Shown here one piece after another: positions 1-10,322 of a stretch of DNA of 64,000 nucleotides. Origin of the DNA: Dokdonella koreensis DS-123. Its GTDB lineage: Bacteria; Pseudomonadota; Gammaproteobacteria; Xanthomonadales; Rhodanobacteraceae. A program made the position numbers and the translations under genes. The notes under the pieces were generated by a model. That model was not told the DNA's origin and ran no database searches. It saw nothing but the letters and a program-made list of their open reading frames with translations. The stretch is taken from positions 2,894,686 to 2,958,685 of the forward strand of contig NZ_CP015249.1 in assembly GCF_001632775.1 (NCBI RefSeq). The letters are read 5' to 3'. Position 1 is the stretch's first letter, and every line of letters begins with the position of its first letter.

Positions 1-837
1 CCGGGCGGCACGGTGATCGTCACCGACGAGCTGGTCGAACTGTTCGGCGACGATCGCCAGCTCGATGCGGTGATCGCGCACGAGCTGGGCCACCAGGAAC
101 AACGCCACGCGCTGCGCCAGGCGCTGCGCAGCTCGTTCGTGGCGATCGCCGCGGCGTTCTTCGCCGGCGACGTGTCGAGCGCCAGCGCCGTGGTCGTCGC
201 GGTGCCGACCGTGTTGCTGCAGAGCCGCTACTCGCGCCAGTTCGAGGACGAGGCCGACCGCTTCGCCCACGCGCACCTGGCGGCGCTGGGCGTCTCGCCG
301 AGCTGGTTCGCGGCCGCGCTGCAAACGCTCGGCGAGGAAGTCCCCGACGATGCCGGCCTGGCCTGGATGTCCAGCCACCCCTCGACGCAGGCGCGCATCG
401 CCGCGGCCGACGAAGCCGGCGTCGCGTTCGTGGCCGCGCATCCGGAACGCGCCGGAGAGGAACCCGCTGTCGTATTGCTCGACGACGCGGACGTCGCCAC
501 GGACGAGGCGTGCCTGACGTGCGCCGCCTGCCGCGAGGACGCCGGCTGCGCCGGCGACGCGGACTGCACGGACTGTGACGACTGCGTGCCCTGCGACGAC
601 GCGGACTGTGCCGAGTGTGCCGCCTGCCGCGAGGACGCCGGCTGTGCCGACGGCGAGGACTGCACGGACTGCGGCGACTGCACGCCCTGCGAAGACGTGG
701 ACTGTGCCGGCTGCGCCGCCTGCCGCGAAGAAGCCGGCTGTGCCGATGGCGAGGACTGTGTCGATTGCGACGACTGCGCGCCCTGCGACGACGCGGAAAA
801 CACCTGCAAGGACGCCACGCTCCCGGCGGGTACCTGA
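1..837 (+). CDS. M48-family zinc metallopeptidase, 5' truncated, with Cys-rich repeat tail
   Basis: The frame is open from base 1 (PGGT then VIVTDEL), so the true start lies left of the window. The HELGH zinc motif at codons 27-31 and the downstream FEDEADRFA segment, carrying the third zinc ligand Glu, are those of M48 (Ste24/HtpX/BepA-like) peptidases, which cleave membrane or envelope proteins. A hydrophobic stretch rich in Ala, Val and Phe (about bases 130-225) separates the two motifs. The catalytic domain ends near base 450. An acidic linker follows, then three near-identical 32-residue units with eight Cys each, and a short end (NTCKDATLPAGT). Such a tail is not part of the M48 family as I know it. 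Membrane anchor or signal peptide cannot be judged because the N-terminus is missing. Family call is confident; substrate and tail function are unknown. Confidence 0.88.
   Translation, partial: PGGTVIVTDELVELFGDDRQLDAVIAHELGHQEQRHALRQALRSSFVAIAAAFFAGDVSSASAVVVAVPTVLLQSRYSRQFEDEADRFAHAHLAALGVSPSWFAAALQTLGEEVPDDAGLAWMSSHPSTQARIAAADEAGVAFVAAHPERAGEEPAVVLLDDADVATDEACLTCAACREDAGCAGDADCTDCDDCVPCDDADCAECAACREDAGCADGEDCTDCGDCTPCEDVDCAGCAACREEAGCADGEDCVDCDDCAPCDDAENTCKDATLPAGT
511..798 (+). repeat. Three tandem 96-bp coding repeats (Cys-rich, 32 aa each)
   Basis: Units run 511-606, 607-702 and 703-798, in frame with the M48 gene. Each encodes Cys at unit positions 1, 4, 7, 13, 19, 22, 25 and 28, so the spacing is C-x2-C-x2-C-x5-C-x5-C-x2-C-x2-C-x2-C-x4 before the next unit. 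The other residues are mostly Asp, Glu, Ala and Gly. The invariant core is AAC-RE-(D/E)-AGCA. The units are also similar at DNA level, so copy number may vary by slippage or recombination. Metal binding or disulphide-linked structure are both possible. Confidence 0.95.
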
Positions 838-989: not shown

Positions 990-1931
990 TCAGAGCGCCT
1001 GCTCGAGTTCCGGGATGATCTTGAACAGGTCGCCCACCAGGCCGAAGTCGGCGATCTCGAAGATCGGCGCGTCGGCGTCCTTGTTGATCGCCACGATCGT
1101 GCCGGCGTCCTTGATGCCGGTCAGGTGCTGGATCGCACCGGAAATGCCGATCGCGACGTACAGTTCCGGCGCGATGATCTTGCCGGTCTGGCCGACCTGC
1201 AGGTCGTTGGGGGCATAGCCAGCGTCGACCGCCGCGCGCGAAGCCCCCACCGCCGCACCGAGCTTGTCGGCCAGCGCGTAGATGATCTCGAACTGCTCGG
1301 CCGAGCCGAGCGCGCGGCCGCCGGAGACGACCTTGGCCGCACCCTGCAGGTCCGGACGATCGGTCTTGCCCTGCGCCAGGCCGACGAACCGCGTATGCGC
1401 CGGCACGGCCACGTCGAGGCTGAGCGTCTCGACCGGTGCCGCGGCGCTGCCGCGGGCGGCGGCCGGATACGACGCCGTGCGCACCGTGCCGACCACCAGC
1501 GCATCGGCCGGCGCTTCCACGGTGACGATCGCATTGCCGGCGTAGATCGGGCGCTTGAAGGTCTGGACGCCTTCCACCGCCATGATGTCCGACACCTGGG
1601 CGACCCCGAGCAGCGCGGCCACGCGCGGTGCCAGGTCCTTGCCGAACGTCGTCGACGGCAGCAGCAGGTGGCTGTAGCCCTTGCCCGCCACTGCGGCGAC
1701 CTGCGGCGCCAGCACGGCCGCCAGCGCGTGCGCGTTCTCGGCGCGGGCGACGGTCAGCACCTTGGCTACGCCCTCGATCGCGGCCGCCTCGGCGGCGACG
1801 CCGGCCGGATCGGCGGCCAGCACGAGGACGTCGATCGATCCACCGATGGCCTTGGCGCAGGACACGCTGCGCGCAGTGCTGGTATTGAGTTTGCCGTCGA
1901 GATGCTCGGCGACGATCAGAATCGTGCTCAT
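990..1931 (-). CDS. etfA: Electron transfer flavoprotein alpha subunit
   Basis: Encodes 313 residues starting [13 protein letters not shown]. The N-terminal nucleotide-binding-like domain is followed by the FAD domain, whose conserved stretch [16 protein letters not shown] and the later IVAINKD and [15 protein letters not shown] segments are typical ETF-alpha signatures. With EtfB it forms the soluble heterodimer that takes electrons from acyl-CoA and other dehydrogenases and passes them to ETF-ubiquinone oxidoreductase. The ATG overlaps the etfB stop by one base (TGATG), which supports this start over longer in-frame extensions and indicates translational coupling. Length is normal for the family. 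Confidence 0.97.
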
Positions 1932-2677
1932 CAGATCAGCCCCTTCGTCTTCAGTGCGGCGACCAGCTCGGCCACGTCCTTGACCATCACGCCCTTGCTG
2001 CGCTTGGGCGGGGCCGCGTAGTGCGTCGTCTTGAGGTGGTCGCCCGAGGCGACGCCGAGGCTGGCCAGCTCGATCGTCTCGATCGGCTTGGCCTTGGCCT
2101 TCATGATGTCCGGCAGCTTGATGAAGCGCGGCTCGTTGAGGCGCAGGTCCGAGGTGATGACGGCCGGCAGGTCCACTTCGATCGTCTCCAGGCCGGCATC
2201 GACCTCGCGCGTCACGCGCGCCACCGTGCCGTCCACCTCCACCTTCGAGGCGAACGTCGCCTGCGGGCGGTCCCACAGCGCCGCCAGCATCTGGCCGGTC
2301 TGGTTGGCGTCGTCGTCGATCGCCTGCTTGCCGAGCAGCACGATCTGCGGCTGCTCCTTCTCGATCAGCTTCAACAGCGCGCGCGCGGCGGTCAGCGGCT
2401 GGATCGCCTCGCTGGTGACGACGTGGATCGCGCGGTTGGCGCCCATCGCCAGGCCGTTGCGGATATGCGCCTGGGCGTCGGCCGGGCCGATCGTCGCGAC
2501 GATCACCTCGCTCGCGATGCCCTTCTCGCGCAGGCGCAGCGCTTCTTCCAGGGCGATGTCGTCGAACGGGTTGGCGGAGAGCTTGACGCCCTCGGTGACG
2601 ACACCGCTGCCGTCCGGCTTGACTTGGATGCGCACGTTGAAATCGACGACGCGCTTGTAGCCGACCAGGATCTTCAT
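1931..2677 (-). CDS. etfB: Electron transfer flavoprotein beta subunit
   Basis: Encodes 248 residues starting MKILVGYKRVVDFNVRI, the usual ETF-beta opening. Other recognisable segments are NPFDDIALEEALRLREKG, LLGKQAIDDDANQTGQMLA and LPAVITSDLRLNEPR, which belong to the AMP-binding ETF-beta fold. It is the first gene of a two-gene operon with etfA, with a candidate promoter about 90 bases upstream. Length matches the family (about 250). Role: beta subunit of the electron carrier linking fatty-acid and amino-acid oxidation to the respiratory chain. Confidence 0.97.
   Translation of the reverse strand: MKILVGYKRVVDFNVRIQVKPDGSGVVTEGVKLSANPFDDIALEEALRLREKGIASEVIVATIGPADAQAHIRNGLAMGANRAIHVVTSEAIQPLTAARALLKLIEKEQPQIVLLGKQAIDDDANQTGQMLAALWDRPQATFASKVEVDGTVARVTREVDAGLETIEVDLPAVITSDLRLNEPRFIKLPDIMKAKAKPIETIELASLGVASGDHLKTTHYAAPPKRSKGVMVKDVAELVAALKTKGLI

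Positions 2678-6659: not shown

Positions 6660-10322
<3,663 letters not shown>

Follow-up and report, generated by a model that had tools for sequence, protein, structure and literature searches.

Here, we present an M48 peptidase of Dokdonella koreensis DS-123 that carries, behind an apparently normal catalytic domain, an acidic tail built from three Cys-dense copies of a 32-residue unit. We show by sequence comparison that the tail was enlarged in this species from a short, roughly four-Cys version. Related species still carry the short version, and the tail is for this reason a real, lineage-specific addition. We tentatively propose that the tail forms a disulphide-bonded appendage that modulates the protease.

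Architecture of the M48 protein

The gene lies at the edge of the window, by which we mean the whole 64,000-nucleotide stretch of DNA that was analysed (Table 1). Its start codon is 599 bases before window base 1 (L005:9401), and the full gene (L005:9401-10837) begins with ATG and encodes 478 amino acids. The order of parts in the full protein (P0001) is DUF7092, a membrane helix recognised by eye, the M48 domain, and the Cys tail. A Pfam scan places DUF7092 (PF23368) at residues 8-84, over threshold at 70.8 bits (cut-off 24.5), and Peptidase_M48 (PF01435) at residues 167-338, with 89.6 bits against a curated cut-off of 20.3 (E 2.9e-25), which makes the protein a member of that family. The putative helix spans residues ~101-123. 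An earlier note, made from the window letters, had listed anchoring of the enzyme among possible roles of the tail; this role is not needed, because the N terminus supplies both DUF7092 and the apparent membrane helix.

The same note had described a normal HELGH peptidase ahead of the repeats, and the domain match and intact motif bear this out. Across 12 aligned sequences the motif residues do not vary, and neither do E282 and the H, P, and R of HPSTQAR; E282 is probably the counterpart of E201 in BepA. Both the M48 structure 3c37 and Escherichia coli BepA are matched by a profile built from window positions 1-834 and 19 relatives. The protein is a predicted zinc-dependent protease.

Table 1. 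Positions of the M48 gene, its parts, and the neighbouring genes in the window.
Feature	Position	Strand	Basis
3′ part of M48 gene, 278 of 478 codons	1-837	+	Window placement and full protein P0001
Peptidase_M48 domain (P0001 residues 167-338; begins upstream of window)	1-414	+	PF01435; profile match to BepA, 3c37
HELGH zinc-binding motif	79-93	+	H227, E228, H231 invariant in alignment
Glu of FEDEAD, aligning as the third zinc ligand	244-246	+	E282 invariant
HPSTQAR, HPx4R active-site plug motif	376-396	+	H326, P327, R332 invariant
Linker between peptidase and repeats, acidic near its end	415-510	+	Sequence, alignment
Cys repeat unit 1 (32 residues, 8 Cys)	511-606	+	TRF, in-frame comparison
Cys repeat unit 2 (32 residues, 8 Cys)	607-702	+	TRF, in-frame comparison
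Cys repeat unit 3 (32 residues, 8 Cys)	703-798	+	TRF, in-frame comparison
C-terminal end with 25th Cys and stop codon	799-837	+	Sequence, ORF
Electron-transfer flavoprotein alpha gene, convergent neighbour	990-1931	-	ORF; named from sequence
Electron-transfer flavoprotein beta gene, neighbour	1931-2677	-	ORF; named from sequence

The gene immediately upstream, which overlaps the start of the M48 gene, encodes a DUF898 protein (PF05987, 5e-112). This arrangement is found in all 12 loci from the genus and its near relatives. In named loci from several phyla (L044-L065), the M48 gene again has a DUF898 match upstream in 22 of 22 cases, spanning at least 118 residues in 18 of them and only 73-74 residues in four. 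These 22 were examined out of 80 retrieved from other lineages, a set from which records of the same or near genomes may have been excluded. DUF898/DUF7092-M48 is a widespread, uncharacterised gene pair; our literature search found no paper on DUF7092, and none of the titles retrieved for YjgN or DUF898 concerned the pair.

A tandem array of Cys-dense units

TRF detects an array at positions 510-797 with a period of 96 bases, 3.0 copies, and 85% matches, and its score of 411 is the highest in the window. The in-frame reading agrees: there are three 96-bp units of 32 residues, each with eight Cys in fixed spacing, as the earlier note had it. The spacing, C-x2-C-x2-C-x5-C-x5-C-x2-C-x2-C-x2-C-x3, is identical in all three and puts Cys at unit positions 1, 4, 7, 13, 19, 22, 25, and 28. 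In the repeat blocks 25% of residues are Cys, compared with a background of 1.0% (129 of 12,766 residues in 24 long, high-GC3 window frames). Over its 124 residues the tail has a net charge of -34 and contains 15 CxxC pairs. The GC content by codon position is 0.71/0.62/0.86 in the tail and 0.78/0.48/0.91 in the peptidase part, and this shared excess at the third position supports the reading frame of the tail.

We find that 12 of the 32 columns vary between units, and that none of the eight Cys columns is among them (hypergeometric p = 0.012). The Cys codons themselves differ silently at 4, 4, and 2 of 8 positions in the three unit pairs. Furthermore, proportional nonsynonymous differences (0.13-0.16) are lower than synonymous ones (0.25-0.49) in each of the three pairs, although over only ~20 synonymous sites. 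At the DNA level, the three pairs agree at 79/96, 74/96, and 80/96 bases (77-83% identity). Recent duplication of the units, which had been suggested from their DNA similarity, is weakened by this identity and by the synonymous differences; the duplication is not clearly recent.

AlphaFold2 returned no confident fold for the tail, either alone (pLDDT 47.2) or as part of window positions 1-834 with 19 relatives, where the tail blocks scored 44-63 and the last block 39. A fold search ranked M48 structures first, none at E ≤ 0.001.

Distribution of the tail

The tail matches no family in Pfam or NCBIfam at E up to 1, metallothioneins and other catalogued Cys repeats included, and the enlarged unit was not found in the other genomes searched; both results support the earlier note, to which no M48 member with such a tail was known. 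Bacterial metallothioneins have a high Cys content, a feature that the Dokdonella tail shares without matching them. The sole PHROGs match is to a family of unknown function (0.0054). A search with 112 residues of the tail gave 34 pattern stretches in genome_contigs and two in viral_contigs, none of them confirmed, and nothing in plasmids; records of the same or near genomes may have been excluded from all three. Among sampled genomes of the class (369) and the phylum (398), two sets that partly overlap, the tail was found in the source genome and in none of the 368 and 397 others, respectively. Literature searches for such a Cys tail returned no paper.

Several weak candidates were rejected. 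No significant match to the tail was found in the PDB, and the matches to an antifreeze protein (E 6.1) and tubulin cofactor C (E 0.25) were set aside as compositional. A weak match in the source genome at G000:C1:862818-863024 (E 0.008) was set aside, as its two most Cys-rich frames are unlike the repeat. The eight-Cys spacing pattern matches in 52 of 398 genomes of the order; among the matches listed, those outside the window are TGC/TGT-rich simple repeats as far as examined. The pattern also picked up a 9-base tandem repeat (TGCGCCGGT) in the source genome at G000:C1:4207617-4207754, outside the window.

The gene is present in all 10 genus genomes examined, D. koreensis DS-123 included. 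Eight of the nine other members carry an acidic tail of 35-61 residues, counted from a conserved P, with 4-5 Cys. The start of the tail, P-[GD]-Y-D-x-C-x5-C, is kept in all eight, while tail length and the later Cys positions differ widely. The novelty claimed in the earlier note needs qualification: the 24-Cys array was not found in other genomes searched, but it is an enlargement of a genus-wide four-Cys tail and not an isolated invention.

The ninth member, G001, is the closest relative and has a one-base frameshift between plug and tail. Its in-frame product retains the peptidase and ends 26 residues past the plug. The alternative frame runs for ~110 strongly acidic residues with seven tail Cys and a coding-like codon composition. 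A frameshift in close relatives had been named in advance as a result that would speak against production of the tail; it occurs in this one of nine relatives, and the other eight are in frame. The frameshift could be either a true loss or an assembly error.

At the family level, 32 of 233 sampled genomes have DUF7092, and C-termini were read in 31 of these (G428 is without a locus). An acidic Cys tail is found in 11 of the 31, counting G001: the 10 genus members and G067, which belongs to a different genus and has a four-Cys tail with C-x4-C and C-x2-C (CPNGVC...CADC; L136). The other 20 end 11-34 residues past the HPx4R plug with at most one Cys. The g40 genomes G080, G1188, and G1192 are without a Cys tail. 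In a FastTree phylogeny of the 31 family sequences and five outgroups, G067 clusters with the genus (support 0.959), and the tail-less G1188 and G080 fall outside. This placement fits a single gain of the four-Cys tail in the ancestor of the genus and G067. Outside the family, the 22 named DUF7092-M48 loci have the same domain order beside DUF898, with 4-43 residues C-terminal of the plug. A Cys-rich tail is found in none of them: past the plug, 17 lack Cys altogether and five contain a single one.

When the eight intact genus tails are combined into a profile, it matches units 1-3 at 20.2, 25.9, and 24.6 bits. An equal score was reached by one of 2000 shuffled tails and by one of 2000 column-permuted tails. 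If Cys are left in place and the remaining columns are permuted, 62 of 2000 permutations reach that level, and the link between the units and the genus tails therefore lies mostly in Cys spacing and acidity. Beyond Cys spacing, the homology signal appears modest.

Possible roles of the tail

E. coli BepA is a close point of comparison. It has the same M48 fold, HEXXH, Glu, and HPx4R plug, followed by a C-terminal extension. BepA has TPR repeats past the plug, whereas the Dokdonella protein has its Cys-dense acidic tail there, and the Pfam scan of P0001 contains no TPR family. With the NCBIfam BepA model the protein reaches 37.1 bits, far below the cut-off of 570, and it does not qualify as BepA by this model. 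Nor does it qualify as E. coli LoiP, which shares the M48 domain and is its best NCBIfam match (2.5e-12): it scores 46.8 bits where the cut-off is 365. LoiP is a lipoprotein, as its model name also says; where it has a lipoprotein signal, the Dokdonella protein has DUF7092 and the apparent membrane helix.

The reading that we prefer, and hold tentatively, is that the tail is a disulphide-bonded acidic periplasmic appendage next to the plug, modulating access, partners, or stability. The gene product is most likely an M48 zinc protease anchored in the inner membrane and belonging to the DUF898/DUF7092-M48 pair. To judge from sequence inspected by eye and from analogy with BepA-like relatives, its C-terminal half, including the catalytic part, is most likely periplasmic. 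Disulphide bonding is favoured because Cys in the periplasm would tend to be oxidised. The sequence comparison shows that a short acidic extension at the C terminus, with some four Cys, arose in the ancestor of the genus and G067 and was enlarged in this species to the three 32-residue copies. The resulting appendage would be compact and strongly acidic and would sit just behind the HPx4R plug, where BepA has its TPR domain; it would most likely tune the protease, either as a docking site for partners or substrates or as a restraint on the plug. The domain order, the intact catalytic residues, the clade-confined tail, the match of the genus-tail profile to all three units, the conserved start of the genus tails, and the invariant Cys columns count for this reading. 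Counted against it are the topology read by eye and by analogy, the modest homology signal beyond Cys spacing, the low AlphaFold2 confidence, the out-of-frame tail of G001 with its peptidase kept, and the odd Cys total of 25. In addition, CxxC spacing suits redox-active or metal thiolate sites no less well than disulphides with a structural role.

This last point leads to one of two serious rivals, both of which we consider less likely. The tail might be a metal-binding module, in which Cys with Asp and Glu hold Zn, Cu, or another soft metal for buffering or sensing near the active site. The CxxC pairs and the strong negative charge suit such a module, but the tail matches no metallothionein or other metal-binding family in Pfam or NCBIfam, thiols in the periplasm would tend toward oxidation, and the genus tails hold only 4-5 Cys.

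The second, about as likely as the first, is that a permissive, disordered acidic tail grew near-neutrally, through slippage in DNA rich in GC and in GACTGY, and has little function. TRF detects an inner 18-base periodicity in the array, the genus tails differ widely in length and in the placing of their later Cys, the frame of G001 is lost right before the tail, and the AlphaFold2 confidence is low, all as expected for such growth. However, the Cys columns are invariant between units, nonsynonymous differences stay below synonymous ones in every unit pair, and C-x5-C is retained in every intact genus tail.

The BepA plug also counts for the preferred reading. According to excerpts of PMC7950410, H246 of BepA, the equivalent of the His in HPSTQAR, lies on a mobile active-site plug with the motif HPX4R, and in BepA-type enzymes the plug His is the fourth zinc ligand. 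When the plug was tethered by an engineered disulphide, function was abolished, and a reductant restored it (PMC7950410, excerpts). Redox restraint near the plug is possible in an M48 enzyme on the strength of this result. A protease gated through redox or metal by a Cys-repeat tail behind the plug, with a strength set by repeat number and a tail derived from the four-Cys tail of the genus, seems to us improbable. Least probable of all is a cysteine switch, in which tail Cys in their reduced state would bind the catalytic zinc or obstruct the cleft until oxidation frees them: the tail does follow the plug, which in BepA occupies the zinc, but in BepA-type enzymes the plug His already serves as fourth ligand (PMC7950410, excerpts), 45 residues separate the plug His from the first tail Cys, and 24 Cys far exceed the needs of such a switch.

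M48 enzymes have a common catalytic core and differ mostly in the parts before and after it. The tailed lineage bears on how the plug is controlled in members without TPR repeats. It offers a natural series on one scaffold, from tail-less proteins through a four-Cys tail and an out-of-frame tail with seven Cys to the 25 Cys described here, in which the influence of a Cys tail on an M48 protease could be tested directly. In the wider picture, a conserved DUF898/DUF7092-M48 system has acquired a lineage-specific Cys tail that was enlarged in one species.

Neighbouring sequence

The electron-transfer flavoprotein alpha gene lies within the 1.5-kb flank of the M48 gene in nine of 10 genus loci. 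After the tail, the highest Cys density over 96 codons in any frame of the window is 18 Cys, within a Cys- and Arg-rich open shadow frame at 8621-9418 on the minus strand, whose codon-position GC is not coding-like. TRF also finds a 21-base tandem repeat of 3.2 copies at 8778-8845.
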